A stretch of 32,026 nt of DNA from Clostridiaceae bacterium (GCA_012523135.1 JAAYJD010000271.1:1-32026); one strand, 5' to 3'; positions 550 to 23,881 are shown, numbered from the stretch's first letter. Translations and numbers: made by a program. Notes: generated from the sequence alone by a model not told the origin.

Positions 550-558
550 GATCGTTCT

Positions 559-3026: not shown

Positions 3027-3998
3027 TCAATGATGCAGATACCATGCAACGAACTTTTTGATACCGTCATGAATTCCGGTCTGAGGCGCGTAACCAAGAA
3101 CCGACTGCGCCTGCGTGATGTCCGCGTACGTTCTTTGAACGTCACCTGGCTGTTCCGGCAGATGCTTGATAGAAGGAACCTTATGCAGCGCGCCAGCTAT
3201 CATATTGATCAAGTCAAGTAGGCGAACAGGATCCCCATTTCCCAAATTGAAAACATCAAAGCGTTGGCCTTCCTGAGTCCATAAGAGCGCCTTATACGTG
3301 CCGTCAACGATATCGTCGATATATGTGTAATCACGCGCCATGCTGCCGTCACCATACATGGGTACCGGTTGATCGGCTGCGATCAGCCTGGTAAATTTGT
3401 GAATCGCCAGATCCGGCCGCTGCCTGGCACCATATACGGTAAAGTACCGGATGCAGGCGATGCTGATACCATACAGATGGTGGTAAACATAGCAAAACAG
3501 CTCCGCCGCTTTTTTGGAGGCGGCATACGGCGAGATGGCCTGGTCAACCGGATCCTTTTCGCTGAACGGCACTTTGGGGTTATTCCCATAGACGGAAGAT
3601 GAGGAAGCTAAAACCAGCCGGCCTACCTGGTGCTGTTTCATCTGTTCTAAAATGTTCACAGTCCCGTTGACATTGACCGACAAGTACAACTGCGGATTCT
3701 CAATTGAAGGCCGCACACCAGCATAGGCTGCCAGATGGATGACTGAATCGATCTTTTGGTTCGAGAACACGTCAGATAGAAAGCATTGATCCAGAATATC
3801 CCCCGGCAGCATGGTGAAGTCCGATCTGCTGCCTGATGCCGTTTTCATGACTTCAGCGATATTTTCCTTTTTGACACGAGGATCGTAAAAATCATTGAAA
3901 TTATCAATTCCAACGACATCATGGCCATCACGCAGCATTTTCTCCGCCACATGGGAGCCAATAAATCCGGCAATACCCGTGATCAGTATTTTTCCCAT
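3027..3998 (-). CDS. NAD-dependent epimerase, probable UDP-glucuronate 4-epimerase
   Basis: This 323-residue short-chain dehydrogenase-type protein has the NAD-binding motif GIAGFIGSH (residues 8-16), SSSSVYG (132-138) with the catalytic Ser, and the catalytic pair Y158/K162 in SPYAASKKAAE. The N-terminal segment VVGIDNFNDFYDPRVKK is typical of the UDP-glucuronate 4-epimerase group (CapI, LspL), which makes UDP-galacturonate in the cytoplasm. The start ATG lies one base after the stop of the UDP-glucose dehydrogenase gene, with AAAGGG as ribosome site. The pair would thus give UDP-Glc, then UDP-GlcA, then UDP-GalA. A different uronate or hexose epimerase is possible, but the context favours a uronate. 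It is the last gene of this transcription unit. Confidence 0.82.
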   Translation of the reverse strand: MGKILITGIAGFIGSHVAEKMLRDGHDVVGIDNFNDFYDPRVKKENIAEVMKTASGSRSDFTMLPGDILDQCFLSDVFSNQKIDSVIHLAAYAGVRPSIENPQLYLSVNVNGTVNILEQMKQHQVGRLVLASSSSVYGNNPKVPFSEKDPVDQAISPYAASKKAAELFCYVYHHLYGISIACIRYFTVYGARQRPDLAIHKFTRLIAADQPVPMYGDGSMARDYTYIDDIVDGTYKALLWTQEGQRFDVFNLGNGDPVRLLDLINMIAGALHKVPSIKHLPEQPGDVQRTYADITQAQSVLGYAPQTGIHDGIKKFVAWYLHH

Positions 3999-3999: not shown

Positions 4000-5358
4000 T
4001 CAGCCCTTTCTCTGGCGTCCGATCGAGTAGTATTCTACTTGAGCTTTTGCCATCTCTTTTATACTTAGAATATTGCGTCCATCAAAGACAAGCGGCGTAT
4101 GCATCAGCTGCCGGTAGTCCTGAGGCGTGATTTCCTTTATTTGCTGCCACTCCGTAAAAATAAAACAAGCATGCGCGTTCTTGAGTGCATCTCTCGGCTG
4201 GGTCACATAGGTTATATTGCCGGCTTCATGCCTGCCTTGCGGGAATAATTTCTGAAAATTAGGCGTTCCAACCGGATCGTAGGCAAACACCTCAGCACCC
4301 TCATGAAGCAGAAAACTGATGTTGTCAATTGCTGCTGATTCCCGGAAATCGTCCGTACCGGGTTTGAAAGTCAACCCGAGCGCAGCGATCTGCAATCCGG
4401 AAAAGGTAATCAGCCGGCTTGATGCCTTGCGGATGAGAATGGTTTTCTGGTCACGGTTGACATCGATCGCTGCTTTGACTGTCCTGAGATTATAACCGTG
4501 TTGTTTAGCCAGAAATTCCAGCGCTTTCGTATCCTTGGGAAAACAAGATCCGCCATAACCGATACCGGCATTCAGATGTTTTGCCCCGATTCGATCATCA
4601 TAAGACATCCCTTTGGCGACATCGAGAATGTCGGCATCCACCAGTTCGCAAAGATTCGCGATATCATTCATGTAGGATATTTTGAGCGCTAAAAAGCTGT
4701 TGGCCGCATATTTGATCATCTCTGCGCTGCGTCTGGAAACAGACACGATCGGCAAGCCAAACGGTTTATAAATGTCCGTCAGCAAGTCTTCAGCCCACCG
4801 GCTGCTCGTTCCGATCACAATCCTGGCAGCCTGCAACGTATCGTGCACGGCAGATCCCTGGGCCAGGAATTCCGGATTGCTGGCCACTTCGATGCGAATG
4901 CCATTCTTCTTGAAATCGCGGACAAACTGCTCGACTTTATCGTTGGTTCCCACCGGCACAGTTGATTTAACGATGACCAGGCAGTCCTGTTTGACGTTTT
5001 CCGCTATTTGCCGGGCAACTTTGGCGATGCTTGACAAATCGGCAGATCCGTCTGGTTGCTCGGGTGTTCCCACGCCAATAAATATAGCCGCCGCATCCCT
5101 GTAGGCTTGATTGACATCCGTCGTAAAAAAGAGGCGTCCTTGCTCAAGGCCTCTGGCCAGCAATTCCTGCAGTCCTGGCTCAAAAAACGGCGCAATACCG
5201 CTTTTGCATAAATTGATTTTATCCCCGTCCACATCAAGGCAAGTCACATGGTGTCCGATTTCTGCAAAACAGACGGCAGCCACCAAGCCCACGTATCCTG
5301 TGCCCACGACAGCTATTTGATACATCATATCATTCGCCAGCCATTTTCTGCTCACCAT
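4000..5358 (-). CDS. UDP-glucose 6-dehydrogenase
   Basis: The protein oxidises UDP-glucose twice to UDP-glucuronate with NAD. It carries IAVVGTGYVGLVAAVCFAE (Rossmann motif, from about residue 15), IFIGVGTP (92-99), the STVPVGT segment and the active-site cysteine C272 in GYGGSCFPKDTKALEF. The length of about 450 residues fits the family (Ugd, TuaD). From this start it overlaps the upstream Wzc-like gene by seven bases. Two internal ATG codons at 5328 and 5325 would start the protein directly before YQIAVVG, where homologues usually begin. Neither choice has a strong Shine-Dalgarno site, so the start is uncertain. Its product is the likely source of carboxyl groups for the TupA-like amidoligases of the locus. 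Confidence 0.93.
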   Translation of the reverse strand: MVSRKWLANDMMYQIAVVGTGYVGLVAAVCFAEIGHHVTCLDVDGDKINLCKSGIAPFFEPGLQELLARGLEQGRLFFTTDVNQAYRDAAAIFIGVGTPEQPDGSADLSSIAKVARQIAENVKQDCLVIVKSTVPVGTNDKVEQFVRDFKKNGIRIEVASNPEFLAQGSAVHDTLQAARIVIGTSSRWAEDLLTDIYKPFGLPIVSVSRRSAEMIKYAANSFLALKISYMNDIANLCELVDADILDVAKGMSYDDRIGAKHLNAGIGYGGSCFPKDTKALEFLAKQHGYNLRTVKAAIDVNRDQKTILIRKASSRLITFSGLQIAALGLTFKPGTDDFRESAAIDNISFLLHEGAEVFAYDPVGTPNFQKLFPQGRHEAGNITYVTQPRDALKNAHACFIFTEWQQIKEITPQDYRQLMHTPLVFDGRNILSIKEMAKAQVEYYSIGRQRKG

Positions 5359-6704
5359 TTATATCCGTTATTCAAGATCAATCCGGCGACTTTCAAGTCA
5401 CTCATGGAAAACCGGCTAATCGCCAGTTTTATGTCCTGGAAAGCTGTTATCCCCTGCATAACCACTAAAATAGCGCCATCGGCATGTTTTGCCAGGGTCA
5501 GGGCATCCGGATTCGCATTGAGCGCAGGCGTGTCGATAAGAATATAATCATATTTATTTTTCAATGTTTCAAGCAGCTCGTTCATGGCGGAACTGCCCAG
5601 AATGTCTGCGGGATACATGGGAAGGTTTCCTCTGCATATGATATCAAGATTGCGAATATCCGTCTTGTTGATAAGCTTGGCATGTAGATTTTTGTTTGAC
5701 AGCATCTGCGATAGGCCCGGCTTCATATTCAGTTTAAAATAGCGATAGAGTGCCGAGTTGTGCAGGTCACCTTCATTCTGCGGTTCAGCCCTGCGAAAAT
5801 CGCAGTCAATGATCAAAACGCTTGCAGTTGTCATTTGCGCAAGCATGATGCCAAGATTATAGCAGTTTGTCGATTTCACAGTGTTTTTATCCGGGCTTGA
5901 AAAGATAATCGTTTTTAAGCCTGACCCCGGATCTTCGAAAAGGTTCGTCAACAGCTCTTTATACCAGTACACAGAACGGCTGTTCGATTTCACATCAAGC
6001 ATCGGTTCCATTCTGTGGAACGGAATGAAGATATGGCCTATGACCGGAACATCATAACGCCTGAGCAAATCGTCTTTGTCTTTGACATGCTTGTCTGTTC
6101 TGCTTAGGACCATCGCCAGGATCAAGCCAAGGAACATGCCGGTTGCAATGCCGAATATGATGTATTTAGCAAGGCTTGGGCCACTGGATCCTGTCGGGGC
6201 TTTTGCCGGGCTTAGAACCTTCAGCGTATCGTACTCATTGATCTCCGATACAATCCGCGGCGCCAGCCAGGTAATCGATTCGGCAATGGCCAGTGCATCG
6301 CCAGGGTTGCCGGATATAACCTGCAATTCGAAATATTCTGTGTCATTGATAACATTGTAGGCGACCATGTTCTGCAACGGCCCCGTTCCGTTAGCCAGTT
6401 TGCTTTGTTTGGCCACTGCATCAAGGAAAATATCGGTTTTTAGCACCTCGATATAAGAGATCACGATCTTCTGCAGATAGTTCAGATCACTTAACGGGGT
6501 TTGATAACTATCCGGTGCAGCCGTTGATGTTTTGGCCACATACATGATTGCTGTCACCGTATATTCCTTATCCACCAAATATTTCGCGGCTACCAGTGAT
6601 CCGGCCAAACACACGAAAACGCAAATGACAACAATCAAGAGTCTCCTTCTGAGAATGGAGAATAAATCTGCAATCGAATATCGTTTATCTTTATCTGCGT
6701 TCAT
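5352..6704 (-). CDS. Wzc-like polysaccharide chain-length protein fused to a BY-kinase-type domain with a degenerate Walker A
   Basis: The 450-residue protein has a Wzz-type N-terminal half with membrane segments at about residues 22-42 and 178-200 flanking an extracytoplasmic region. The C-terminal half is a bacterial tyrosine-kinase-like P-loop domain. Walker A-prime (VLIIDCDFRRAEP) and Walker B (YDYILIDTPA) are present. The Walker A site reads PDKNTVKST where active enzymes have PGEGKST, so its glycines are missing. The protein ends NNGYKW without the usual tyrosine cluster. Kinase activity is therefore doubtful; a structural role in chain-length control or export is more likely. The ATG at 6704 has GGAG nine bases upstream. 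A longer TTG start at 6755 would overlap pylD. Confidence 0.85.
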   Translation of the reverse strand: MNADKDKRYSIADLFSILRRRLLIVVICVFVCLAGSLVAAKYLVDKEYTVTAIMYVAKTSTAAPDSYQTPLSDLNYLQKIVISYIEVLKTDIFLDAVAKQSKLANGTGPLQNMVAYNVINDTEYFELQVISGNPGDALAIAESITWLAPRIVSEINEYDTLKVLSPAKAPTGSSGPSLAKYIIFGIATGMFLGLILAMVLSRTDKHVKDKDDLLRRYDVPVIGHIFIPFHRMEPMLDVKSNSRSVYWYKELLTNLFEDPGSGLKTIIFSSPDKNTVKSTNCYNLGIMLAQMTTASVLIIDCDFRRAEPQNEGDLHNSALYRYFKLNMKPGLSQMLSNKNLHAKLINKTDIRNLDIICRGNLPMYPADILGSSAMNELLETLKNKYDYILIDTPALNANPDALTLAKHADGAILVVMQGITAFQDIKLAISRFSMSDLKVAGLILNNGYKW

Positions 6705-6739
6705 ATCTCGTTTCTCCGAATCATCTGCTGATTTTTGCT

Positions 6740-7558
6740 TTATCTTTGATTCCAAGATTTCAGCTTTTTTATAAAGTCAAAATACATGGTCATAATTCCG
6801 AGTTCCAAAGGATTATGGATAACCGTTGCTGTTTCTCTGGCTGCTTCCGTTATGCCGCATGGCATTCCAGGCGCTGAAATAATCGTATTTTCAGTCACAT
6901 CTGCCTTTGTTATAAAATCAGCTGCTGTGGAGGCCTCAATGATATAAGGATATAGCTGCACACTCGTTATTGCAGGTAAGACCACAGCATTTTCAATATT
7001 TTTGGCCGCTTCGGCTGCTTTACGCTCATCCAGGTCACAGATAACGGGGATCGCACGCTGCCCGGCAAGGTATCTTGCCGCCGAATGTCCCACCGGTCCC
7101 GCACCGATGATCAGCACCCGCGTGTTTTCGATTGTGATCCCGCGTTTTTTCATTACCTGCACCAGAGCAGCGGCAAAACCCTGACCGGTAGCCCAACCGT
7201 TATCGGACTGGATGGCGCTACCGATCCCAAGGGCTGCACAAACATGGTCGTCAGCCAAAAAGGCAACGTCACACCGATTCAAATACGCCTCTTGAATGCC
7301 GGCAACATCCGTTTTCCCGGTGACAACCGTTTCAACACCGCAATGACGGAGAATTGCCGCCACCGCCTGCGCAAACCCGCTAATGACACCAAAGCCGCTT
7401 GTGACAGGAATAACAGCGGCTTTCCCGTTTGTATAACATCCTGTAAGGCCAACAGCAATTTTCGCGATTTCTGCCAGTGTTTGCCCGGTCTGCTGCATAA
7501 AAAGCGCTTCATACTGATTCAGCTGCGCTTCGATGACACCGATATCGGTTTCTTTCAA
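6740..7558 (-). CDS. pylD: PylD, 3-methylornithyl-N6-lysine dehydrogenase (pyrrolysine synthase)
   Basis: PylD oxidises the terminal amine of 3-methyl-D-ornithyl-N6-L-lysine with NAD; the aldehyde then cyclises to pyrrolysine. The 272-residue protein shows the family blocks PVTSGFGVISGFAQAV (51-66), FLADDH (100-105), the Rossmann motif IGAGPVGHSAARYL (151-164) and SAPGMPCGITE near residue 230, in the same order as in Methanosarcina PylD. It is slightly longer than archaeal PylD (about 260) because of a C-terminal tail. The start is TTG with GAGGAGGAAGG about 12 bases upstream, as no ATG fits. It follows pylC by 21 bases and precedes the Wzc-like gene on the same strand, so it sits inside the EPS operon. 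Confidence 0.93.
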   Translation of the reverse strand: MKETDIGVIEAQLNQYEALFMQQTGQTLAEIAKIAVGLTGCYTNGKAAVIPVTSGFGVISGFAQAVAAILRHCGVETVVTGKTDVAGIQEAYLNRCDVAFLADDHVCAALGIGSAIQSDNGWATGQGFAAALVQVMKKRGITIENTRVLIIGAGPVGHSAARYLAGQRAIPVICDLDERKAAEAAKNIENAVVLPAITSVQLYPYIIEASTAADFITKADVTENTIISAPGMPCGITEAARETATVIHNPLELGIMTMYFDFIKKLKSWNQR

Positions 7559-7579
7559 TCTGGTCGTATGCCTTCCTCC

Positions 7580-8728
7580 TCACCCTTCAATAAAACCCCA
7601 GTCGGCAATACCACATTCTCTTTTCACACAGGCGATGAAATCCAGAAAACGTTCTTGCGCCTGAAGTCTGTCAGCACCTGTTGTTATGACAATTGCTTTC
7701 CACTTTAAACTGCCTTCCGTGTAATCGGTAATGGCCTCTGTACTGCCAAAAAATCCCTTGTGAACGCGTAAATGCCTGCATGTACTCATGATATGCTCGC
7801 CAAGAACATTGATCTGTCCGTCGCCGACCTGGATCTGCTGATAGACGCAGACCTGTCTGGATGGTAAAACGCGGACTTTCTCCACGTGCCCCTGTGCCAT
7901 GTCAACCAGCATCTCCACCATATTCATCCCCGTGGCGTGATACACGCTGATGGGGGTCTGGCTGGGCAGACGGGCATCGATCTCCAAGAGCTTCAACTGC
8001 CCGTGATGGCTGATGACCTCAATATCAAAGATTCCTTTGATATTGAGGCTCCTGGCCAGGCTTTCGCCAATCGCCAGCATCTGCTGTTCTTCACTTTGGC
8101 TCAGCTGAGCGGGAGCGATGATGCGCTTGCAATCATAATCCCGATCGCAGATCACTTCGGTAATCTGCGGGAAAAAAGCATTTTGACCGTCACCGAGCAC
8201 TTCCAGCGAATAAGAAGGTCCCTCCAGATATTCCTGGATAACCGTTCCATCCAGACCGTGTACCGCCAGATACGCCTCGACTTCGCTCGGGCTGTAAGCT
8301 TTTTGCACGTAACGGCTGCCGCTGAGCCCATCTGGTTTCAGAATAACGGGGTATCCGCAATCCGGATAGACAGCGGGTATCGGCAGCTGGTTTTCAACAA
8401 ACAGCGCGTTGGAATTTTGCTTCGAACACGAAATGCTGTACGCTCTTTTGTCAAAAATAACGGGTGTTCCGATTCGGCCACCGTATTCCTCAAGCTTGGT
8501 CAGAATGTTTATGTCTTCTATGGCCGGCAGAACGGCATCGGCTTTCTGAAACAATGAACTCATTGTTTTTTCATCATAAACATCAGCAATGAACGCTTCG
8601 TCGGCTAACAACATTCCCGGTGCATCATCGTTCCGATCCGCAACCATGACGTAATAACCGGCTTTTCGGGCCAGATACATGGCCTCGACACCCTGCAGTT
8701 TTGCGCCAATGACTAATATGCGTGTCAT
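7580..8728 (-). CDS. pylC: PylC, 3-methylornithine--L-lysine ligase
   Basis: PylC is an ATP-grasp enzyme that joins 3-methyl-D-ornithine to the epsilon-amine of L-lysine. The 382-residue protein matches the family from its start, MTRILVIGAKLQGVEAMYLA. It has the ATP-grasp elements YPVILKPDGLSGSRYV, VIQEYLEGPSYSLEVLGDG and the metal-binding LLEIDARLPSQTPISVY, all characteristic of PylC. The ATG at 8728 has AAGGA nine bases upstream; an ATG three codons earlier (8737) lies directly on that site, so 8728 is preferred. It lies between pylB and pylD, the order found in translation-associated bacterial pyl clusters. The 126-bp gap to pylB holds a possible small ORF. Confidence 0.93.
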   Translation of the reverse strand: MTRILVIGAKLQGVEAMYLARKAGYYVMVADRNDDAPGMLLADEAFIADVYDEKTMSSLFQKADAVLPAIEDINILTKLEEYGGRIGTPVIFDKRAYSISCSKQNSNALFVENQLPIPAVYPDCGYPVILKPDGLSGSRYVQKAYSPSEVEAYLAVHGLDGTVIQEYLEGPSYSLEVLGDGQNAFFPQITEVICDRDYDCKRIIAPAQLSQSEEQQMLAIGESLARSLNIKGIFDIEVISHHGQLKLLEIDARLPSQTPISVYHATGMNMVEMLVDMAQGHVEKVRVLPSRQVCVYQQIQVGDGQINVLGEHIMSTCRHLRVHKGFFGSTEAITDYTEGSLKWKAIVITTGADRLQAQERFLDFIACVKRECGIADWGFIEG

Positions 8729-8733
8729 CTTAT

Positions 8734-8907
8734 TCATTCCTTCTCGTCAGGGGAAAAGCTGCGTTTGACCAAGGAACTATGAAGCAATGAGTTGGTCTTT
8801 TCTCCGAAAGATTCATGAATCTGGTTATTCTTTTGGAGAATCTGTAGAGCAACTTTTTCATGATCAGTTCCTAAGGCTATTTTTGCGTTGGACCAGCCAA
8901 TCATCAT
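8734..8907 (-). CDS. Possible 57-residue small protein between pylB and pylC
   Basis: An open frame begins at two adjacent ATG codons (8907, 8904) inside the 3' end of pylB, preceded by CAGGAA. It fills the whole pylB-pylC gap and stops with a TGA overlapping the first possible pylC start. The predicted peptide starts MMIGWSNAKIALGTDHEK and ends VKRSFSPDEKE. It is charged and helical-looking, with no membrane segment, and I recognise no family. Its codons look like those of its neighbours and the stop/start arrangement suits translational coupling, but a chance frame in a 126-bp gap cannot be excluded. Confidence 0.35.
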   Translation of the reverse strand: MMIGWSNAKIALGTDHEKVALQILQKNNQIHESFGEKTNSLLHSSLVKRSFSPDEKE

Positions 8908-9916
8908 ATTCCTGCTTCGTCGCGTTTCTCACGCCACATTTTTTGAAGATATCCTGAATGCCAGCCACCGTACGGTACCCTTCGTCAATACCGGCTTCGC
9001 AGGTGGCAACGCCCGCCAAACCCTTTTGGGGCGGGATAATTGAGGTCACGACATTGGCCCCGGCCAGCAGCCTTTTTTCAAGGCCCTGCAGCCCTTCCAC
9101 ATCGAGCGACGCCGGAATCAGCGCATCCGGGAAAAGCAGACGCATAACGGAAATATTCCTCAGTTCGTTTCGATAGTCAGGTTCTGGCGAGCCGCTATAC
9201 GGCGTTCCTTCCTGCGGGATGAAGGTCATCGTGCGAACTTGCGAAGCATTCAGGCTTTTCATGACTTCGAAGGAATGCACGCAGTCCAAATGCGTATCGC
9301 CCACACCGGTCAGCAGCCCTTCTTCGATTAACAGCCCGAGTTTTGCCGCCGCCTTTTTTGCGGCCATCCGTGTGTCATAGCTTTGATCCAGCCGAAGCCT
9401 TGCATAAAGCGTCCTGTTGTGCGTTTCCTGATAAAGAGCATACCAGTCAGCACCTGCCTCTTTGATGGTTTCCAGTCCTTTTTGATCCAATACGCCGGGT
9501 GAAACCATAACGGCCAGTCCCGATTCATCTTTGACCGCTTTGACAATATTGCCAAGCAGCTCCGGATTCATCGTGAAAAACGGGTCGTCACCGGTTGTCA
9601 GATCGATCAAATGAACCCCAGACACCTGCAGTTCCCGTACCGTATCCAGCACCTCGCTTGATGTCTTGCGATAACGCGGCGGTTTATGGTTGTCCTTCCT
9701 GTAAAAACAAAATGTGCAGTTGTTTTTGCAATAGGTGGAAAAATATACAAAACCATATAGGAATATTTTATCAGCGAAGACATGACGGCACGTTTCTCTG
9801 GCCGCTTGGAAAATCAACTGCTCATCGGCTTCGTCCGTCCGGTCGAGCAGATATAATATCTCTTCCGGGGCAACCGTCTGGTTGTTCATGCACTTGTTGA
9901 GGATGTCCTTAAGCAT
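8864..9916 (-). CDS. pylB: PylB, methylornithine synthase (radical SAM)
   Basis: PylB rearranges L-lysine to 3-methyl-D-ornithine, the first step of pyrrolysine synthesis. The 350-residue protein has the radical SAM cluster motif C63-x3-C67-x2-C70 in YFSTYCKNNCTFCF. It also has PylB blocks LIDLTTGDDPFF, MVSPGVLDQKGLETI, ALYQETHNRTLYARLR, GLLTGVGD, VRTMTFIPQEGTPYSG and LIPASLDVEGL. From memory of the Methanosarcina PylB structure, substrate-binding Asp, Arg and Ser/Asp residues lie in the DLT-G-DP, VR-MTF and ASLD segments, and all appear conserved here. The length equals the family norm. A strong GGGGGA ribosome site precedes the ATG. It follows the TupA-like gene by 51 bases. Nearby BioB-like radical SAM enzymes are the main alternative, but the fit to PylB is far better. 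Confidence 0.95.
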   Translation of the reverse strand: MLKDILNKCMNNQTVAPEEILYLLDRTDEADEQLIFQAARETCRHVFADKIFLYGFVYFSTYCKNNCTFCFYRKDNHKPPRYRKTSSEVLDTVRELQVSGVHLIDLTTGDDPFFTMNPELLGNIVKAVKDESGLAVMVSPGVLDQKGLETIKEAGADWYALYQETHNRTLYARLRLDQSYDTRMAAKKAAAKLGLLIEEGLLTGVGDTHLDCVHSFEVMKSLNASQVRTMTFIPQEGTPYSGSPEPDYRNELRNISVMRLLFPDALIPASLDVEGLQGLEKRLLAGANVVTSIIPPQKGLAGVATCEAGIDEGYRTVAGIQDIFKKCGVRNATKQEYDDWLVQRKNSLRN

Positions 9917-9967: not shown

Positions 9968-10861
9968 TTAACTCACATCAATCAGATCACCGAAACTGAA
10001 ATCGTATTCGTCTGGATTGAAGCGCAGGAAACCGCTCCCGTCGTATAATGTCAACTCATTGAAATATATTTTTGAGTCAACAACAAACAAATCGACTCTG
10101 ACAAATCTGAAACCTTGAGAAAGCTTCTTTGCGACATCAAGCAGTTGGTCCAGTATTTCAATTTTCGGAGTTGGCTGGTCAACCTGGATAAATTTCGAGC
10201 CGAGTGGAATGCGGTTCCAGTTCACATCGAAGATCTCCATTTGATGTGCGACAAAACGGCCCTTGTGCAGCTGAATATACCTGGGAACACCGCCGAAACA
10301 CATCACCTTGTAGTCATCAGGCGGATTTTTTGTTTCGGACATGAATTTTTCGCAGATGATCTTGGGGGTTACTTTTTTATATGGCCATTCCCGCCCTTGG
10401 TAAAACCAGTTGATACGCATCCATTTTTTCAGTTTTCTTTTGGCGTCTTTTATATCCAGCTTACTTTTATCACCGCAAATGATATTGAACCCCGACCCGT
10501 GTGTACACTTGAGGGCGAAGGCAGCCGGCAGGGCGTCCCAATTAATATCATCAACGCTTTCACACACCATGACCAGCGGGATCAGGTATTCATCGCCAAT
10601 CCTGTCTCTGATGAAATCCCGGACAGCATATTTATCAACAATTTGCGTATAAAGAGGATTTCTGTCGTGAAGTTTAAGCCATTGCAGCTTTTCACTGAAT
10701 CGCCTGGGATTCTTCAAATTAAGCCGAAAACCCATGTGGTTGCGGTACATCGTCTTGAGATACATTTCATCAGGCATCCAATCAAAGTAACCGTGATTGG
10801 CAAAACCACGCACGAGATCATCTGGATGGCCGATTTTCCCAAGTTGTTTGAACATTTGCAT
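9968..10861 (-). CDS. TupA-like ATP-grasp amidoligase, first copy
   Basis: The 297-residue protein belongs to the TupA-like ATP-grasp family (Pfam ATPgrasp_TupA). The N-terminal block NPRRFSEKLQWLKLHDRNPL and DKYAVRDFI are diagnostic. The nucleotide-binding segment is ALKCTHGSGFN (K118), and the metal-binding C-terminal part is RVDLFVVDSKIYFNELTLYD. The name-giving TupA is required for teichuronopeptide in alkaliphilic Bacillus, and comparative studies predict that the family forms amide bonds between amino acids and surface polymers. Here it is the first gene of the unit containing pylBCD and the UDP-uronate genes. I infer it could attach an amino compound to a uronic-acid carboxyl. The substrate cannot be read from sequence. 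Confidence 0.85.
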   Translation of the reverse strand: MQMFKQLGKIGHPDDLVRGFANHGYFDWMPDEMYLKTMYRNHMGFRLNLKNPRRFSEKLQWLKLHDRNPLYTQIVDKYAVRDFIRDRIGDEYLIPLVMVCESVDDINWDALPAAFALKCTHGSGFNIICGDKSKLDIKDAKRKLKKWMRINWFYQGREWPYKKVTPKIICEKFMSETKNPPDDYKVMCFGGVPRYIQLHKGRFVAHQMEIFDVNWNRIPLGSKFIQVDQPTPKIEILDQLLDVAKKLSQGFRFVRVDLFVVDSKIYFNELTLYDGSGFLRFNPDEYDFSFGDLIDVS

Positions 10862-10973: not shown

Positions 10974-11168
10974 GCATGAACCTGTCAGCGTTCTTGAATG
11001 CGTATGGCAGGTATGTTGTGGAATACAAACATGGGTTTCGAAGAGGTGTCAAAATGAAAATTTCACGGGCATGACGCTTCGTGAAACAGGAGATTAGATC
11101 AGATATAGAAAGTAATGAAGACAGACTTCTATTGATGTGCTTATAAAGATAATCGAATGTGACGCCTT

Positions 11169-11251
11169 GGCAACCAGACAATCATGACACCTTGAGGTGT
11201 ATTAGACTCACGGCTTTGTGAACCAGGTTTTCGCCTGGGGTACTCTTTTCA
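11169..11251 (-). promoter_or_regulatory. Probable degenerate GEMM-I (cyclic di-GMP) riboswitch in the TupA-pyl leader
   Basis: The minus strand reads CCAGG-CGAAAA-CCTGG (P2 with a GAAA-containing loop), then CACAAAGCCGTGAGTCTAA (conserved CAAAGCC and GTCTAA), a P3 arm with CACCT-CAA-GGTG, then CATGATTGTCTGGTTGCC, very like the 3' half of the aptamer at 2810-2886. The 5' strand of P1 (GAGTACC) pairs only partly with GGTTGCC and the tetraloop closing pair is a mismatch. It may therefore be a diverged, weakened or re-purposed member. Its place between promoter and first gene supports a regulatory role. Confidence 0.55.
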
Positions 11252-11253
11252 GT

Positions 11254-11282
11254 TGTCCATCCACGTGGCGGTTAAGTGGACA
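11254..11282 (-). other. Strong hairpin preceding the riboswitch-like element
   Basis: TGTCCA and TGGACA arms enclose an inner CCAC/GTGG stem. It lies directly 5' of the aptamer in the transcript and may insulate it or stabilise the leader. No U-tract follows, so it is not a terminator. Confidence 0.5.
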
Positions 11283-11503: not shown

Positions 11504-13057
11504 CTAAATTTTCTTGTTATTTTTTTCGCCTTTGCGCATGCTGTCCTTGAGTTTTTTCCACAGTTCCATAAACATTTTTGTCCGACTGAATATCAAGACC
11601 ATAGCGCCGTTAAACACAACTGTTATAAACAGGATGTCGATCAGAAACCCCGGCAGACCGCCGAGCTTGATAAAGGATAGGAAAAACCGGATGATAAAAA
11701 ACAGGCACACAAACAAGGCATCATAGCCCATGTGCCGGATATAATATTTTACGCATGCAGATTTCAAGCCGTTCTTATATGTCACAAGAATGTCAACCGG
11801 CTCGACAATCAGGGATCGGATTAATATCGGTGCAATAAAAAGGCCAATCAACCCGAATCTTTTAAACAGAAGAACTTCCAGAATGATATTGACAATCGCG
11901 GCAAAAAGCGGTACCCACCTGAATTGCGAAAAATAGCCCATTGATTTTCTGAAGATGTAGGCCGTATAATGAACGCCGTTCATGTAGAACTTGATCACTA
12001 ACGCATACATGACGCCTGTCGTCAGCAAATACGCAGGATCGAGCCAGATTTCACCGATAAATTTGTTGAGCAGAAGCAAAAATCCGGTTCCGATATAGCC
12101 GTATATCCAGGCGTTGATGAAATATATTTTATTGAACGCATCAAGCTTTTTTTCTTCATTTTCCAGAACGTTCAGGTTGCCGACACTCGCGGATATTGAT
12201 CCGATGACTTGGCCGATGGCCCCGTTGATCGTGTTGATCAACAAGAGATAATTGGAAACATAGCCGATATACTGGATGCCAAGCAAAATTGAAATCATGA
12301 TATAATCGGTCTGGTAAAAAATCATGGAACCGATTTTTTGCAGGGCTGTGCTTTTGATATCGGTCCAAAGCTTTGCCTTTTCTTCAATTGTGATTGGCAT
12401 AATCTGTTTTTCTTGCAGATAAGGATAGTCTTTTGTCGCTCTTCTTGAGCAAAAAACATTGTTGAGCAAATTGCTGGCAATCATCAGCAGGACGTAGACA
12501 ATGTAGTTGTGTGTCACCAGCAATCCGATGATTTGTGCCACGTTTAGCAGGATATTGAAGATCAGCCTGAATAAATTGACGATATAACTCTTTTGATCGG
12601 CTAGATAAATCGTGAAGCGATAGACGAAAAGATAGCTGGTCAGTGAATTGACCAAAAAAAGTACATACAAGAGCGTGACGCTTTCTTCAACCTGCGGTGT
12701 CTGTACCAGGTACTTGAGAAAAGGGATGATGGATAATCCCAATCCTGCAACAACAATGAGTACGACTCTGAACATTTTTCTGCAAAAATCAATCCACATT
12801 TTAATCTTTTCAGTGTCGTTCATCGCGATTGGTTGATACATGCGATAGATCAGCGCTTCTTCGAAACCCAGCTCAGCCAGCGACAAAATGTTAAAAATGT
12901 TTCCGAACAGGCCATTGATTCCCAGATATTCCGCACCTAATAATCTGATGAAAATGGTTCGGCAAATAAAACTCAGCATGAAATACAGAACCTGACATAT
13001 GAACGCGATTCTCATGTTGTTGAGCGCTTTATAAGTCCTGCTGGCGCGGTTCATCAT
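11504..13057 (-). CDS. Wzx-type polysaccharide flippase
   Basis: The 517-residue polytopic membrane protein has about 12-14 hydrophobic segments. Its N-terminus (IRLLGAEYLGINGLFGNIFN) is typical of the oligosaccharide flippase/sugar translocase branch found in Bacillota EPS and capsule loci. Role: moves undecaprenyl-pyrophosphate-linked repeat units across the membrane. The ATG follows GGGAGAA, and the gene overlaps the polymerase gene by four bases. It ends in TAG, one of only two amber stops among the intact genes here. Another in-frame TAG lies 15 codons further on and a TGA 17 codons after that. Confidence 0.9.
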   Translation of the reverse strand: MMNRASRTYKALNNMRIAFICQVLYFMLSFICRTIFIRLLGAEYLGINGLFGNIFNILSLAELGFEEALIYRMYQPIAMNDTEKIKMWIDFCRKMFRVVLIVVAGLGLSIIPFLKYLVQTPQVEESVTLLYVLFLVNSLTSYLFVYRFTIYLADQKSYIVNLFRLIFNILLNVAQIIGLLVTHNYIVYVLLMIASNLLNNVFCSRRATKDYPYLQEKQIMPITIEEKAKLWTDIKSTALQKIGSMIFYQTDYIMISILLGIQYIGYVSNYLLLINTINGAIGQVIGSISASVGNLNVLENEEKKLDAFNKIYFINAWIYGYIGTGFLLLLNKFIGEIWLDPAYLLTTGVMYALVIKFYMNGVHYTAYIFRKSMGYFSQFRWVPLFAAIVNIILEVLLFKRFGLIGLFIAPILIRSLIVEPVDILVTYKNGLKSACVKYYIRHMGYDALFVCLFFIIRFFLSFIKLGGLPGFLIDILFITVVFNGAMVLIFSRTKMFMELWKKLKDSMRKGEKNNKKI

Positions 13058-14268
13058 TCAGTTCTCCCGTTCCCGCTGATTGGCGAACGTCCGTTCGCAT
13101 AATCACACAGCGCGACACACATCAACAGAGCATAAAAACCAAAATTTTCACAGGATAACTCGGCGATGGCCGCTAAGATAAGGGCTGTCATGCCGAAAAC
13201 CAACAGGATGACATCGCGCTTGTTTCGGCATGTTTTCAATCTGGCCCCGGCTGTCAGCAGCATGGCATAAAACACGCCAAGCCCGATCACCCCGTTAAAG
13301 TACAGGATGCTGAGCAGCTGGTTATGGACTTGAATGGGACTCACCAGATTCATGCCGGCATCCGGATTGACAATATTGACTTGAACTGTTCTTCTGTTTT
13401 CCCCGATGATGCCATGGCCCAGCCACATTTTCTCCCGGCATTGGCGCAGGACATCATCCCAGATATAGGTCCGTTTATTCAGCGACAGATCCTCATTCAG
13501 CAAATCAACAATCAGCCAGCGAAAGTAATTCTGAATTCGCAAAAACAAGATGGACAAGTTAAGCACAATGCCCGCTGAGACCATGAAGGTGTAATTGATG
13601 ATTCGATGCGCAAACGCGAAATAAGCCAGGAAATACCCGATGAGAAGCGCAGCAGATGCGATCATCACGGTGGAGATGCGCCGGTCAACGATGTAGTAAA
13701 GACTAAGTCCCAAAAAAACATAGTCATACCATTTAAACCTTGTGCCTCCGAGTTCCTGCGTTATCAGGCATAGGGTCAGGCAGACGATAAAGCTGTGGCT
13801 GATTTTCGTTCTGATTCCAAGCAGTTCAATTCCAGTCGCATAAAAACAAAGAACATGCAAGATTATCCACACGGACAAGATCCAGTACAATTTCTGAACC
13901 GTGCTGTAATAATCTCGCTTGCAGGCCAGAAAGATGATATAGCACAACAATACGACTGAATAAAAATCCTTAAACCATAAATACAGTGTTCTGAATGCAA
14001 ACGCATTGCCCAGGAGTAACGGAATCACGTCCAGACCTTTGAAAACCATCACCAGATAAAAAGCAACAGGCAGATCGCTGTCTTTTCTGCTGATATTGAT
14101 GACAACGAAAAACAATACGCCCAGTTTATACAACTCGATCATACTGCTCACAGCGCCCAGATTCATGACATATTGCGGCACAAAGAAAGGAAACAGCAAT
14201 AAGAGCAGTTCCAGCTCACTGCTTTTGAGGGATATATTAGCGGCTGCTCTCCGATCCAGCATATTCAT
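13054..14268 (-). CDS. Wzy-like O-antigen/EPS polymerase
   Basis: The 404-residue protein has about ten to eleven predicted membrane segments. The large loop and motif RTYIWDDVLRQCREKMWLGH followed by PIQVHNQLLSILYFNGVIG are characteristic of the O-antigen ligase/polymerase family. It should polymerise flipped repeat units on the outer face of the membrane. It starts seven bases after the GT4 gene stop and overlaps the flippase start, so the three are likely translationally coupled. Such polymerases are poorly conserved; the family call rests on topology, motif and context. Confidence 0.82.
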   Translation of the reverse strand: MNMLDRRAAANISLKSSELELLLLLFPFFVPQYVMNLGAVSSMIELYKLGVLFFVVINISRKDSDLPVAFYLVMVFKGLDVIPLLLGNAFAFRTLYLWFKDFYSVVLLCYIIFLACKRDYYSTVQKLYWILSVWIILHVLCFYATGIELLGIRTKISHSFIVCLTLCLITQELGGTRFKWYDYVFLGLSLYYIVDRRISTVMIASAALLIGYFLAYFAFAHRIINYTFMVSAGIVLNLSILFLRIQNYFRWLIVDLLNEDLSLNKRTYIWDDVLRQCREKMWLGHGIIGENRRTVQVNIVNPDAGMNLVSPIQVHNQLLSILYFNGVIGLGVFYAMLLTAGARLKTCRNKRDVILLVFGMTALILAAIAELSCENFGFYALLMCVALCDYANGRSPISGNGRTE

Positions 14269-15494: not shown

Positions 15495-16421
15495 CTAATC
15501 GCTCTTCTCCGGCAAATCAAGCCAGCTGCCCAGCAGTTCATCCCATTTTTCAGGGATGAAGGGCTGGTATCCAGCCCAGTTAAAGAAAGTCATCTCATTG
15601 AAATAGATCGTTCCAGATATGTTGTGCAGGTCGACCCGGACATGGCAAATCCCCTGTGCAAGCCTGGCTGCGACTGATTTCATCTTCTCGAAATTCACAG
15701 GCTTAACGATCGTATAGCCAGCTTTTTCGTATCCTGCTGACATGTCGATACGGTTGAAGTCCATATCAAAATAGTCGTAACGCACATCCTCCCCCCTATC
15801 CACTGTGTAAACCAGGAACTTGGGCATACCGTGAAAACAGAAGATTTTATAGACATTCAGAACAGGGGTTGTATCGTCAGGATATTGATCTGCCGGCCTG
15901 TCATCCAAATATACCTCTCCGATAATGCGCGGTACGATATTCTTGTAGGGCCATTCACGCGCAGTATAATAGTGGTTTTTCTGCAGAGATCGATTAAGAA
16001 TCATTTTAGCCGCAGACATATCCAGCTTGCTTTTGTCGCGACAGATGACCAGCCCGCCGCTGTCGTGCGTGCATTTCAGGACGAAACGGTCGGGCAGATC
16101 TGAAAAATCAATCTCTTCTACACGATTCCAAACGCCGATAAGCGGCACCAGGTACTTATCCCCGACCGTATCTGCCACATATTTCCGCACGCTGTATTTA
16201 TCCGCCATCATGGTGTATTCCGGTTTTCGGTTATACAGCTTCAGCCATTGCAATTTTTCATTAAACGTGACAGGATTTTTCAGGCGCAGCTTTTTGCCAC
16301 ACTCTGCGCGGTAGCGAATTTTCAGATACAGAGGGTCTGGAATCGCCCTGGATATTTTTGCACGCAAAGCCCGCAGGATGATCCGCTTTGCCATTTTCGC
16401 CGTACGGCTCCTATCATTCAC
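15495..16421 (-). CDS. TupA-like ATP-grasp amidoligase, second copy
   Basis: The 308-residue protein is a diverged paralogue of the protein at 9968-10861, sharing NPVTFNEKLQWLKLYNRKPE, DKYSVRKYV, the nucleotide-binding VLKCTHDSGGLVIC (K116) and a C-terminal VRVDLHNISGTIYFNEMTF. It carries an extra short insert (DDRPADQYPDD). Two different amidoligases imply two amino-acid transfers, or one main and one accessory reaction on the polymer. The GTG at 16421 has GGGTGACGG upstream; an ATG at 16394 is an alternative start. It ends in TAG, with a TGA eight codons later. Function beyond family is inference. Confidence 0.83.
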   Translation of the reverse strand: MNDRSRTAKMAKRIILRALRAKISRAIPDPLYLKIRYRAECGKKLRLKNPVTFNEKLQWLKLYNRKPEYTMMADKYSVRKYVADTVGDKYLVPLIGVWNRVEEIDFSDLPDRFVLKCTHDSGGLVICRDKSKLDMSAAKMILNRSLQKNHYYTAREWPYKNIVPRIIGEVYLDDRPADQYPDDTTPVLNVYKIFCFHGMPKFLVYTVDRGEDVRYDYFDMDFNRIDMSAGYEKAGYTIVKPVNFEKMKSVAARLAQGICHVRVDLHNISGTIYFNEMTFFNWAGYQPFIPEKWDELLGSWLDLPEKSD

Positions 16422-16465: not shown

Positions 16466-17248
16466 TCATCCGGTTCGCTTAATTTTACCTTTGAGCGGAC
16501 GCAACACTTTTTTCACGCCGAGTATAACGGGGGCCAGATAAAGACTGTAGAGAACATACAATTTCTCATCTGCCAGCTGCCAAGCCAAAGGATAATTACC
16601 GCTGTCTAAAAGGTCGGAAAAACTGGCCAGACAGGCGCTGTTGCGATTCAGTGTTTTTCGAAGTGTTGCGAGCTCTCTTTCGCCGTTCAGGCAAGGGTGC
16701 AAAGCGACCGTCGTGATGCCGGCGCATTTTACGCTGACCCGATAGGAACGGCACGGAATGAATTTCAGACCGAACCGCTCGTAACATTGGTGAGAACGTC
16801 CGTCGGAAACATATTTGAATCCTGTCTGTCTCAGCGCCATGAGGGTGTTTTTATCGAAGGCGTGTGCAGGTGCAAAGAAAATGTCCGGTGCCAAATCATG
16901 TTGCTGCATAATGGCAAGGCCTTTTTCGAGCTTATCACACTGCACTTGAAAACCATGGCCTGCGAACTCGCTTTTCCCTCTGCCGGTCATCATGCTTTTC
17001 GCTTTGCGATCGTAGACATGCCTGTAGCCGTGCATGCCGATAAGGCAGCCTTCATTTTGATGTTCTTTCATCTTCAGCCAGAAATCAGGATCTGCATCAC
17101 GCTGTTTGAGGAAGGGATCCTGATTGTCGGGAATGATGCCCAGCAAAGGTTTAATCCCATATTCATTGAGCATCTTCAAGGCTGCGAGGAATTTTCCCTC
17201 GTCCATGTGCGGGCAGACATCATCGATTCTGAATGCTAGCTTTTTCAT
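16466..17248 (-). CDS. DUF2334-type polysaccharide deacetylase-like protein
   Basis: The protein of about 260 residues starts MKKLAFRIDDVCPHM, where the two Asp residues match the NodB-type metal and catalytic site. It has IGMHGYRHVYDRK with an H-x3-H metal motif and FFAPAHAFD. DUF2334 proteins belong to the polysaccharide deacetylase superfamily and may remove N- or O-acetyl groups from sugars. No signal peptide is seen, so it acts inside the cell. The ATG at 17248 has GGAG five bases upstream; a GTG at 17293 would lengthen the protein but lacks a ribosome site. Deacetylation of a GlcNAc- or GalNAc-type residue would yield a free amine. Confidence 0.82.
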   Translation of the reverse strand: MKKLAFRIDDVCPHMDEGKFLAALKMLNEYGIKPLLGIIPDNQDPFLKQRDADPDFWLKMKEHQNEGCLIGMHGYRHVYDRKAKSMMTGRGKSEFAGHGFQVQCDKLEKGLAIMQQHDLAPDIFFAPAHAFDKNTLMALRQTGFKYVSDGRSHQCYERFGLKFIPCRSYRVSVKCAGITTVALHPCLNGERELATLRKTLNRNSACLASFSDLLDSGNYPLAWQLADEKLYVLYSLYLAPVILGVKKVLRPLKGKIKRTG

Positions 17249-17297
17249 CATATCTCCAAAAAACAGAAAACTTCTCGCTCTTTCGGCCTTCACGCGA

Positions 17298-18365
17298 TTA
17301 TTCCGTGATCAGTTGTTGCCACAAACCGCATATCGTTTCCTTATCCAGCAGCGTTTTTACCTTGACAGCTTCTCTTGACATCGCTTCAGCCATATTGGCG
17401 TCACGGGCGATCTCATCCATTTTCCTGAACATGCTTTCAACATCGCCGACCGGTGTCAGAAACCCGTTGACGCCGCTATCGATGAACATTCTCGCGCCGC
17501 CTGGCGGACAGTCTGTACAGATGCATGGCAGCCCCATGCCCATGGCTTCCAGCATGGCATTGGACAATCCCTCGTAATCTGAAGGCAGGACAAACATGGC
17601 GCAATCACGCGTTTTTTCATGCACATCCGGGTCAAAGCCATGAAAGGTAACGTTACCTTCCAGGCCGCTTTGTTTGACGATCTGCTTCAGCTCTTCCTCG
17701 CAGCTTCCTTTACCATAGATGGATAGCGTGTATTCAGGATGTTTGCTGATAAACAGCTTATACGCGTCGATCAGCAGCGGATAGTTCTTTTGCGGTTCCA
17801 ACCGGGCAAACGAGACGACCTCCTTTCTTCTCCTGCCTTCATAGCGTTCCGGGAGTCCTTCCATGATGGGGTTTGCAATAATGACGCCTTTTTTTTTAAC
17901 TTTTTTATCGAAATATTCCATGGCGTCCGGCGTTTGAAACACGATTTTTGTCGCTCTCCGGTAAAGGAATCTTCTTATGGCAAATAACCACCGTTTATTG
18001 GGAATGCTTTTTGCCGGATCCAGGCGCTCTGAAACGATGATTTTTCTTTTCAGCCCCAGGGCTGCTGCCAGAAGATAAAGATTGAACATGCTGAAGAAAG
18101 AGATGAACACGGCCTCCTTGTTTTTATTCATCAGCGAACGCAGGTCATGCAGGCGCCACAACGTTTTCGCGACCCCTTTAGCTCCGCGCATGTATGTCGT
18201 ATCGACAGTCACCTGTGCCGGCAGCTTATAATCGACCTGGTTGGCATTCATCAGGTATATTCTGACGGCAAAGCCATGCCTGACAAGGTATTCAGACAGA
18301 ATCGTCACGACTCTTTCTGCTCCTCCGCCCAGCATGGCAGGCATGATAAAAATCACATGTTCCAT
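17298..18365 (-). CDS. GT4-type glycosyltransferase (GalNAc/Gal transferase-like)
   Basis: The 355-residue enzyme begins MEHVIFIMPAMLGGGAERVV. It has SFARLEPQKNYPLLIDAYKL and the E-x7-E motif EGLSNAMLEAMGMGLPCI followed by TDCPPGGARMFI. This group includes PglA/PglH-like and WbnH-like transferases that often use UDP-GalNAc or UDP-Gal, but the donor cannot be fixed. A very strong GGGGGGA ribosome site precedes the ATG. Confidence 0.87.
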   Translation of the reverse strand: MEHVIFIMPAMLGGGAERVVTILSEYLVRHGFAVRIYLMNANQVDYKLPAQVTVDTTYMRGAKGVAKTLWRLHDLRSLMNKNKEAVFISFFSMFNLYLLAAALGLKRKIIVSERLDPAKSIPNKRWLFAIRRFLYRRATKIVFQTPDAMEYFDKKVKKKGVIIANPIMEGLPERYEGRRRKEVVSFARLEPQKNYPLLIDAYKLFISKHPEYTLSIYGKGSCEEELKQIVKQSGLEGNVTFHGFDPDVHEKTRDCAMFVLPSDYEGLSNAMLEAMGMGLPCICTDCPPGGARMFIDSGVNGFLTPVGDVESMFRKMDEIARDANMAEAMSREAVKVKTLLDKETICGLWQQLITE

Positions 18366-18392
18366 AAGTCCCCCCGGCCGGCTCGCAGTTCG

Positions 18393-19814
18393 TCAGCATA
18401 AACCCAGTATGTAATCGTAGACATTCAATATGGATACGACATGTTCTGTTCCATCCGCATTTCCCGCGATCACGCCGCTTGACCGATGGCCGCCTGAGAT
18501 AATCTTGCAGAAGGCATTGCTGCCAAACAGCCGTTTTCCGAACAATCCACGATCAACGCCATATTCAGGATCCATACAATAGACAATTTCCGGATAATGA
18601 TCTGTTCTTGAACCAGGGTAGATATCTTCGCCGCGCTTTGCCCAAATTATAACAGGTTTACCTGCATCCCGCACCTTCAGCAAACCTGATATGATGCGAA
18701 TCCGTTCCGCTTCATAGGCCTCATCTGAAGAAAACGCTTCCCGAAAAACACGGATGCCGCCGTATGGATTCGTTCCATCAAAATGGGGCGCATAACATGC
18801 CCCCTTTGCTTTGAACAGATAGCCAGCGTTTTTAACCTTATGGGCAAATGCAAATCTCTTGAAAAACCCGACCCCCGCTTCGACAGCATGCATTTTTTCC
18901 AATCCCAGCAATACGGCATGCTTGGCGTACTCAACAGCCCGTTTTTTCTGATCGGCTTCGCAGATGAACCGCTCGTTGATCAGCCATTGATTGATGTAAA
19001 ATGTCTTGCGGCATCTCGGTCCGTGACCATGATCACTGATGACGATGACATGATACGCATCACCAAATTCATTCAGAATTTCACCGATCATGTTTTCCAT
19101 CAGAAGATAGGTTTCTTTTATGGCGCCGCTCAGGCGATTGCTTTTTGGGGCAGCATGCTTGCCGTCATCAGCAAAACGCCAGAGAAAATGCTGTATCCTG
19201 TCCGCTGTCAGAATCCCCAGAAAAGCAAAATCGTATGTCTCACGGCTGAGGCATCGCCGAAAAGCACTGAATTGTTCCCGGGTCAATTTAAGGTTCTCTG
19301 ATAAAAACGAGTTCATCGCTTTTTTGCTGGGGTGATCAACGAGACCGCCGAGCGACGGCAAATCAGCCAGATCGACCTGATCTGCCTTGTTCGTCGTGAC
19401 ACGGCCGCTTTCAAAGACAGGACCGCTGATCATCAGGCCATTGACATCCCAGGCTGGATAAGCCAGAAAGGGATTGAAAACAAGGACTTTTCGCCCCCTG
19501 CGACTCAGTTCATCCCATATGCAATGCCCTTTGATCTGTGAATAATCGCCGGCTGACTTGCTTTTAAAATTCATATAGTCAATCGACTCGATAACCCCAT
19601 GCGTTGCCGGATTGAGGCCGGTATAGATGGTTATCCAGGCCGGAATCGAATCGCCCGGGACAACAGATTCCAGCCGATTGAGCCGATTGTTTTCAAGCAA
19701 GGTCCGGAACAACGAAAACGCATGGCTGTGTTGTGCAATGTACGCATAATCCAAACCGTCAATGACGATCAGGATGGTTTTTCGTTTCTGTGCTGCGGCC
19801 ATTTGATTGCCCAT
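18393..19814 (-). CDS. Alkaline-phosphatase-superfamily (phosphodiesterase/nucleotide pyrophosphatase-type) hydrolase
   Basis: The protein of about 473 residues shows the AlkP-superfamily metal site: ILIVIDGLDYAY, then DSIPAWITIYTGLNPATHG with the likely Thr nucleophile, TADRIQHFLWRF, VISDHGHGPRC, and a late DHYPEIVY and GGHRSSGVIAG. It has no signal peptide, so it is cytoplasmic. Such enzymes appear in EPS loci and may hydrolyse phosphodiesters of lipid- or nucleotide-linked intermediates, or transfer phospho groups. The ATG at 19814 follows GAGAGG by six bases; a TTG at 19832 is an alternative. It sits between a P-loop kinase and a GT4 gene, which suggests a phosphorylated substituent. Confidence 0.82.
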   Translation of the reverse strand: MGNQMAAAQKRKTILIVIDGLDYAYIAQHSHAFSLFRTLLENNRLNRLESVVPGDSIPAWITIYTGLNPATHGVIESIDYMNFKSKSAGDYSQIKGHCIWDELSRRGRKVLVFNPFLAYPAWDVNGLMISGPVFESGRVTTNKADQVDLADLPSLGGLVDHPSKKAMNSFLSENLKLTREQFSAFRRCLSRETYDFAFLGILTADRIQHFLWRFADDGKHAAPKSNRLSGAIKETYLLMENMIGEILNEFGDAYHVIVISDHGHGPRCRKTFYINQWLINERFICEADQKKRAVEYAKHAVLLGLEKMHAVEAGVGFFKRFAFAHKVKNAGYLFKAKGACYAPHFDGTNPYGGIRVFREAFSSDEAYEAERIRIISGLLKVRDAGKPVIIWAKRGEDIYPGSRTDHYPEIVYCMDPEYGVDRGLFGKRLFGSNAFCKIISGGHRSSGVIAGNADGTEHVVSILNVYDYILGLC

Positions 19815-19828
19815 AAAACGCCTCTCAA

Positions 19829-20560
19829 TCAATGAGCCTGACCTGAATGGAGAATCAGCGCCTTGATCTGATCGTTGATCACTCCGGGGGATGCCTCACC
19901 GTCCAGAACGGACCACTGGCAACGCCGGGCCAGATGATCATAAACACCTTCACGCAGCCTGAGATAATTGATATCGGGAATATCCGCTTTGCGCATAATA
20001 CAGACATCGGGTGAAGCTTTTAAATAGATATACCGGTCGATCCGCGGAAAAAGCCAGCGGTGACGCCTGATTTCCTGCTCAATCCGTGCAGGAGAATAAC
20101 CAAAATTGATGCCCTGGTCTACAAACAGATCCAGATAATAGCGATCAAAGACAATCTTTTTTTTCATGAGAACCAGCGGGAGCACCTTGACCTGGAACTG
20201 GATCAGGTAGTCTGCCAGGGCCATAAACATCCACACATTGCGGACTGGGGATTTTTTGAAAATTTTACGTTTTAGCTCTGATTTATCTTCCTCCCGGCAG
20301 TGAGGGCTCGATGGCTTTCGGCTGGCTGTCTTTTGCAAAAGCCAATAGGCCGGTCTCAGCAACAGCGGTTTCCATCTGGCCCAGACAAAACAATACGGCC
20401 TAAAATCAGCAGCCTGCTTCAGCAGGCTGATCTGTGACGATTTCCCGCAGCCGTCCAGACCAACCAGAACGATCCGGCTGTTTTTCTGCGAAACTGCTTC
20501 GGATAGATGATGGTTGGCGATATGCGATTTTGGGGAATCTGATGCGTTCATATCATTCAA
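19829..20560 (-). CDS. Thymidylate-kinase-like P-loop kinase
   Basis: The 243-residue protein has a Walker A motif GLDGCGKSSQ near residue 35 and a DRYYLDLFVDQG segment like the DR(Y/H) motif of dTMP kinases. It also has a long basic insertion that true Tmk enzymes (about 205-215 residues) lack. Thymidylate-kinase-like proteins are frequent in EPS and O-antigen clusters and probably phosphorylate a different substrate. It overlaps the upstream GT4 gene by eight bases, indicating coupling. Housekeeping Tmk is unlikely given the location. Confidence 0.8.
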   Translation of the reverse strand: MNDMNASDSPKSHIANHHLSEAVSQKNSRIVLVGLDGCGKSSQISLLKQAADFRPYCFVWARWKPLLLRPAYWLLQKTASRKPSSPHCREEDKSELKRKIFKKSPVRNVWMFMALADYLIQFQVKVLPLVLMKKKIVFDRYYLDLFVDQGINFGYSPARIEQEIRRHRWLFPRIDRYIYLKASPDVCIMRKADIPDINYLRLREGVYDHLARRCQWSVLDGEASPGVINDQIKALILHSGQAH

Positions 20561-21569: not shown

Positions 21570-21628
21570 ATCGATCCCACCCTTACATAGCAACATGTTG
21601 CGGTCAGGGATGTATGCTGTTTATGCTT

Positions 21629-21657
21629 ATTATAGCCGAACAGACATCATCGGTAAA
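21629..21657 (-). promoter_or_regulatory. Sigma-A-type promoter of the minus-strand EPS operon
   Basis: On the minus strand TTTACC (21657-21652), a 17-base spacer and a perfect TATAAT (21634-21629). It lies 60 bases upstream of the preferred start of the first GT4 gene. It would drive the operon down to the flippase. Confidence 0.75.
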
Positions 21658-21732
21658 GGATCGGGCAATGCCAGCGGCCTGATAATTTTTAACACAGTGT
21701 TACTGAATTTTTACATATACATTAAATTTCGC

Positions 21733-21761
21733 TTGTTTTTTTACGTAGCGCATGTTACGAT
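21733..21761 (+). promoter_or_regulatory. Possible promoter of the plus-strand EPS operon
   Basis: TTGTTT, a 17-base spacer and TACGAT lie in an AT-rich stretch divergent to the minus-strand promoter. The predicted start near 21768 would give a leader of about 350 bases before the small membrane protein. The match is moderate. Confidence 0.45.
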
Positions 21762-21769
21762 AAAGAGGG

Positions 21770-21784
21770 TGTCATAATATGACA
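21770..21784. promoter_or_regulatory. 15-bp perfect palindrome, possible operator
   Basis: TGTCATAATATGACA has two 7-base arms around one central base. It sits at the predicted start site of the plus-strand promoter and about 110 bases upstream of the divergent one, a natural position for a repressor. No regulator gene for it is visible nearby. Confidence 0.5.
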
Positions 21785-23870: not shown

Positions 23871-23881
23871 TCAGATAGGCC

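Follow-up and report, generated by a model that had tools for sequence, protein, structure and literature searches.

Pyrrolysine is a rare 22nd protein amino acid, and the searchable literature treats its biosynthesis as serving UAG decoding alone. We analyzed a 32,026-nucleotide stretch of DNA from a Clostridiaceae bacterium (GCA_012523135.1, JAAYJD010000271.1; hereafter the window), in which the pyrrolysine biosynthesis genes pylB, pylC and pylD sit inside an exopolysaccharide (EPS) locus. The window is the entire contig C176 (genome G000) of a 3.42-Mb genome bin of 366 contigs, 97.46% complete and 4.64% contaminated, in which neither PylSc nor tRNA-Pyl was found. The evidence argues strongly that the role of pylBCD in this genome is non-translational. 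We propose, at a probability of roughly 0.55, that pyrrolysine (or 3-methylornithyl-lysine) is synthesized in order to be amide-linked to an EPS that contains uronate; we infer the product, the attachment and the co-transcription of the genes involved.

The first-pass annotation of this DNA had read PylB, PylC and PylD signatures at positions 6740-9916. With the NCBIfam equivalog cut-offs as the criterion of assignment, all three proteins scored above them (Table 1), and the genes are full-length with zero internal stops. The proteins also align with solved structures: PylB with the archaeal PylB 3t7v over nearly its entire length (E 4e-81), PylC with 4ffl over residues 6-318 (E 5e-48) and PylD with 4j43 (E 3e-26). 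Of the residues that are invariant among translational relatives, as judged from alignments with 23-24 sequences of other genomes, 151/153 are retained, namely 81/83 in PylB (the changes being R43C and L329V), 50/50 in PylC and 20/20 in PylD. The radical SAM motif CxxxCxxC of PylB corresponds to C63, C67 and C70, so that all three cluster cysteines are kept. Previous work showed that the substrate choice of PylC is altered by mutating S177, E179, D233 and T256 (PMC11467909); the equivalents in the window, S177, E179, D238 and T261 by our own mapping through the 4ffl alignment, are unchanged and invariant. The likelier start of pylC is the ATG at 8728 rather than at 8737. These results confirmed that pylBCD are intact genes for the pyrrolysine biosynthesis enzymes, whose activity is predicted.

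PylSc and tRNA-Pyl were searched for throughout the bin, together with 20 other genomes encoding PylD or PylB as positive controls. The best PylSc match in the bin (TIGR02367) reached 19.2 bits against a cut-off of 178.15, and for tRNA-Pyl, a covariance model derived from eight Desulfosporosinus genes gave zero matches in the bin at E 1; the window has no tRNA genes of any kind. In the controls, PylSc exceeded the cut-off in 19/20 genomes and tRNA-Pyl was likewise recovered in 19/20 (E 1e-16 to 1e-25). In the exception, G764, pylSn adjoins pylD on a broken 3.6-kb contig. We considered G764 as a second orphan pylCD and rejected it, as the pylSn beside pylD indicates a fragmented translational system. 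The earlier statement that the window lacks pylS and tRNA-Pyl stands, and the genome-wide check that it called for came out empty for PylSc and tRNA-Pyl; PylSn was covered in the window and sampled contigs. A search of the bin for the MttB family was likewise empty. Moreover, TAG ends 22 of the 153 long reading frames (14%) in 40 sampled contig stretches, as well as two genes of the EPS locus, the flippase-like gene and tupA2. UAG therefore looks like an ordinary stop in this genome; in archaea that contain pyrrolysine, it reportedly makes up <6% of stops (PMC9723677).

The pylBCD genes lie in a co-directional string with an operon-like layout. The same-strand gaps are 51 bp (tupA1-pylB), 126 bp (pylB-pylC), 21 bp (pylC-pylD) and ~35 bp (pylD-wzc), the ends of the wzc, ugd and epimerase genes overlap or abut, and no strong terminator-like site was found on that strand between tupA1 and the epimerase gene, in agreement with the short gaps and missing terminator described in the first-pass annotation. 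Its four named neighbours, TupA-like, Wzc-like, Ugd and uronate epimerase, are present, with two amendments. The Wzz/kinase fusion more likely starts at the ATG at 6704 than at 6755, and the epimerase, likely a uronate epimerase, scores 188.9 bits against the GalE model (cut-off 262), too low to assign its exact substrate family. Promoter-like sites are no commoner at the locus than in shuffled sequence. We infer that the seven genes from tupA1 through pylBCD, wzc and ugd to the epimerase form one transcript. Upstream of tupA1 lies a predicted c-di-GMP-I riboswitch aptamer, a feature missed by the first-pass annotation, as was the dispersed repeat in the pylB-pylC gap described below. The position of the riboswitch fits control of the EPS by c-di-GMP. 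Elsewhere in the window, a second, near-consensus c-di-GMP-I riboswitch (2808-2891, minus strand, 84.1 bits) is followed just downstream by a strong terminator-like hairpin (2787-2758) and precedes a gene for a beta-helix surface protein (559-2727); G003 and G011 contain similar DNA. At its end, contig C73 of this bin carries a 93% identical copy of window 549-1428, part of the beta-helix gene.

On this basis, the following route can be envisaged. A lineage close to Desulfosporosinus would have been the source of an intact pylBCD cassette that entered a c-di-GMP-responsive EPS operon unaccompanied by pylS and pylT. Pyrrolysine is lysine acylated on the epsilon nitrogen (PMC11467909), and the alpha-amino group on the lysine moiety should therefore remain free for amide formation. 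The pathway would thus provide pyrrolysine as the amine for TupA1, the candidate ligase, which may amide-link it to the C6 carboxylate of glucuronate or galacturonate residues provided by Ugd and the epimerase; the modified chain could then be exported by a Wzx/Wzy/Wzc-type machinery. TupA1 has no significant match in the PDB. The C-terminal TupA-like domain of Campylobacter jejuni Cj1438 forms an amide between the C6 of glucuronate and an amine (PMC11800379), which makes the surface-polymer role chemically plausible, and the galacturonate of Proteus mirabilis O3 is amidated with lysine (PMC7767033). The suggestion in the first-pass annotation that the pathway serves a surface polymer rather than UAG decoding is thus supported by the empty PylSc, tRNA-Pyl and MttB searches, the TupA-like precedent and the riboswitch. 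More tentatively, the locus may represent a natural extra-translational use of pyrrolysine, its synthesis being controlled by c-di-GMP and the product amide-linked to a uronic-acid EPS, where the reactive imine could allow reversible cross-linking or carbonyl-type chemistry in the matrix. We found no published report of non-translational pyrrolysine, of pylBCD without pylS, or of a link to EPS, in a search that left most subscription papers and preprints uncovered.

Several points weigh against this proposal. The product and the transcript are both predicted, and either of the two TupA-like ligases, which are 40% identical, could accept an ordinary amino acid. In its GGCAAA stretch, the riboswitch upstream of tupA1 deviates from consensus. 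The arrangement is known from one genome, too few to show a linkage conserved across species. PylSn was absent from the window and the sampled contigs, the remaining bin not having been searched for it; MttB family members were absent from the bin, in which MtmB and MtbB were not searched throughout; and ~2.5% of the genome is possibly missing from the bin. Finally, the ancestral ATG position of pylD is now ACG (7567-7565; MTRLLESDI in Desulfosporosinus, ACG-ACC-AGA-TTG in the window), so that translation probably starts at the annotated TTG at 7558 or else at the non-standard ACG. Such a start may be weak and PylD possibly scarce, in which case the product could be the open-chain 3-methylornithyl-lysine. 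The pathway would then be non-translational with 3-methyl-D-ornithine or 3-methylornithyl-lysine, rather than pyrrolysine, as the compound attached to the polymer or exported. We consider this the best of the alternatives, albeit an unlikely one, given that an unused pylD would be expected to decay, whereas the gene is full length, retains every invariant residue and scores above its equivalog cut-off.

The origin of the cassette bears on the possibility that it is a functionless recent passenger, transferred neutrally into a variable EPS island. In a concatenated PylB, PylC and PylD tree, the window is the sister of six Desulfosporosinus sequences (Bacillota) with support of 100/100, within a group of translational clusters. 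At the Desulfosporosinus loci, tRNA-Pyl is accompanied by MttB with an in-frame TAG; most loci also include an intact pylSc, whether close to pylD or at some other point. Since these sister loci are translational, a translational ancestor, with pylS and pylT left behind at acquisition, is the parsimonious explanation. As a separate observation, the pylSc beside pylBCD looks truncated or replaced in some Desulfosporosinus (L030, L031 and L034, ~12240-12430), and L030 and L031 carry a divergent pylSc and a second tRNA-Pyl ~10 kb from pylBCD. The window is the sole non-translational copy in our family, order and class sample, PylB being absent from the other family genomes (22) and order genomes (187), and the cassette bears a repeat insertion and the start-codon change, all of which would suit a passenger. 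However, it occupies a neat position in the co-directional gene string with three intact frames, and no pylS remnant was seen between pylD and wzc. Its GC content (0.49-0.51) resembles that of the island (0.41-0.50 in the EPS genes) and not that of the host (~0.61), and its end branch of 0.33 is the same as that of the translational sister group, so there is no sign of decay or relaxed constraint. A neutral passenger is thus less probable still than an intermediate product. No Pyl genes were found on plasmids and viral contigs. A second genome with pylBCD beside EPS genes and lacking pylS, which the first-pass annotation had suggested looking for, did not turn up, the one candidate for an orphan pylCD (G764) being translational; the contig scan used a single protein and detects close relatives only, and orphan pylBCD in other phyla are possible.

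Alternatively, the system may be an ordinary translational one, with pylS, pylT and the methyltransferase genes absent from the assembly. The bin is indeed fragmented, pylSc does not adjoin pylBCD in the comparators G672 and G619, and in the G764 bin a contig break has cost both pylSc and tRNA-Pyl. On the other hand, an assembly of 97.5% completeness would need to have lost PylSc, tRNA-Pyl and MttB jointly, the 6.7-kb and 22-kb flanks of pylBCD hold EPS and host genes only, none of the 187 other order genomes has PylB, and UAG is commoner among the sampled stops than in the archaea. We therefore regard this explanation as quite improbable.

The remaining question is whether the contig belongs to the host at all. 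The pylB-pylC gap consists mostly of a near-palindromic dispersed repeat resembling a miniature inverted-repeat transposable element (MITE), which provides the pylB stop and the last three residues (LRN-stop), beyond the family-model match. The bin has ten more copies on other contigs, most of them where GC is host-like, and the same-genus genome G003 has six; at the sensitivity used, the remaining 21 genomes of the family yielded none. To the right, GC returns to the host level (0.59-0.61 at 28-31 kb), and from 27 kb onwards parts of the sequence share 74-92% DNA identity with same-genus genomes. The genus-specific repeat inside the cassette and the same-genus match of the host-like flank place the cassette in the host genome. 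A contaminating or chimeric contig, which the 4.64% contamination of the bin and the low GC of the island might suggest, is the least probable explanation, and as neither the tupA-pylB nor the pylD-wzc junction has a repeat that might favour misassembly, contamination or repeat-mediated misassembly is very unlikely. Separately, there is a match between contig C129 and the right end of C176.

The rest of the EPS locus is listed in Table 1. At its end, a radical SAM protein with a SPASM domain is encoded at 26300-27319 (plus strand), and for a 243-aa protein of the locus (19829-20560, minus strand), the sole match is a weak P-loop one (dTMP kinase, 24 bits).

Table 1. Features of the window, with positions counted from its first nucleotide
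Feature	Coordinates	Strand	Support
pylB, methylornithine synthase (radical SAM)	8864..9916	-	TIGR03910, 456.5 bits (cut-off 348.2)
pylC, 3-methylornithine--L-lysine ligase (ATP-grasp)	7580..8737	-	TIGR03909, 365.9 bits (cut-off 248.3)
pylD, pyrrolysine synthase (NAD-dependent dehydrogenase)	6740..7558	-	TIGR03911, 174.1 bits (cut-off 150.05); PF21455 (PylD_N)
~105-bp near-palindromic MITE-like dispersed repeat between pylB and pylC	8770..8876	-	copies elsewhere; terminal inverted repeats TTAGGGACTGTT
c-di-GMP-I riboswitch aptamer (predicted) upstream of tupA1-pylBCD-wzc-ugd-epimerase	11166..11254	-	RF01051, 54.6 bits (gathering 35), E 3e-8
tupA1, TupA-like ATP-grasp ligase	9968..10861	-	PF14305, E 1.5e-60, profile 1-240/241
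tupA2, second TupA-like ATP-grasp ligase	15495..16421	-	PF14305, E 4e-60
Wzz/Wzc-like chain-length determinant fused to AAA kinase-type domain	5352..6755	-	PF02706, PF13614; TIGR01007, 103.7 bits, slightly under cut-off
Ugd/TuaD-like UDP-glucose 6-dehydrogenase (UDP-glucuronate supply)	4000..5358	-	TIGR03026, 429 bits, over cut-off; NF047673, 499 bits, under cut-off
NAD-dependent nucleotide-sugar epimerase, likely uronate epimerase	3027..3998	-	PF01370/PF16363; under NCBIfam equivalog cut-offs
Flippase-like membrane protein	11504..13057	-	context alone, without Pfam match
Wzy_C O-antigen ligase/polymerase-like protein	13054..14268	-	PF04932
Remaining EPS locus: DUF2334 (polysaccharide deacetylase-like), glycosyltransferases, phosphodiesterase, priming sugar transferase (+), radical SAM-SPASM (+)	16466..27319	mixed	Pfam

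Such a complete and seemingly maintained pathway, in a genome where no decoding machinery was detected, would make pyrrolysine as a metabolite separable from the genetic code and offer a possible route for the 22nd amino acid to exist before or without its codon. It would also point to surface polymers of a new, electrophile-bearing class, accessible to existing imine-specific probes.

The closest known system is the bacterial translational cluster of Desulfosporosinus and Desulfitobacterium, which comprises pylT, pylSc, pylB, pylC, pylD, pylSn and an MttB gene with in-frame UAG. The window shares with it the pylB-pylC-pylD order, 60-65% protein identity and the sister position in the tree. 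However, its set has EPS neighbours and a riboswitch upstream, lacks pylSn in the window, and belongs to a bin without PylSc, tRNA-Pyl or MttB. On the polymer side, the locus resembles that of the C. jejuni HS:2 capsule (Cj1438, PMC11800379) in combining a TupA-like ligase within a capsule or EPS locus, a glucuronate supply and a dedicated amine pathway. While the amine in HS:2 is serinol-phosphate or ethanolamine-phosphate, the pathway adjacent to tupA1 would lead to a pyrroline amino acid. Uronic acid surface polymers to which amino acids are linked, or with which they are combined, further include the O-antigens of Proteus with lysine-amidated galacturonate (PMC7767033) and the teichuronopeptide of alkaliphilic Bacillus (PMC8153356), although those polymers use ordinary amino acids and have no pyrrolysine pathway.

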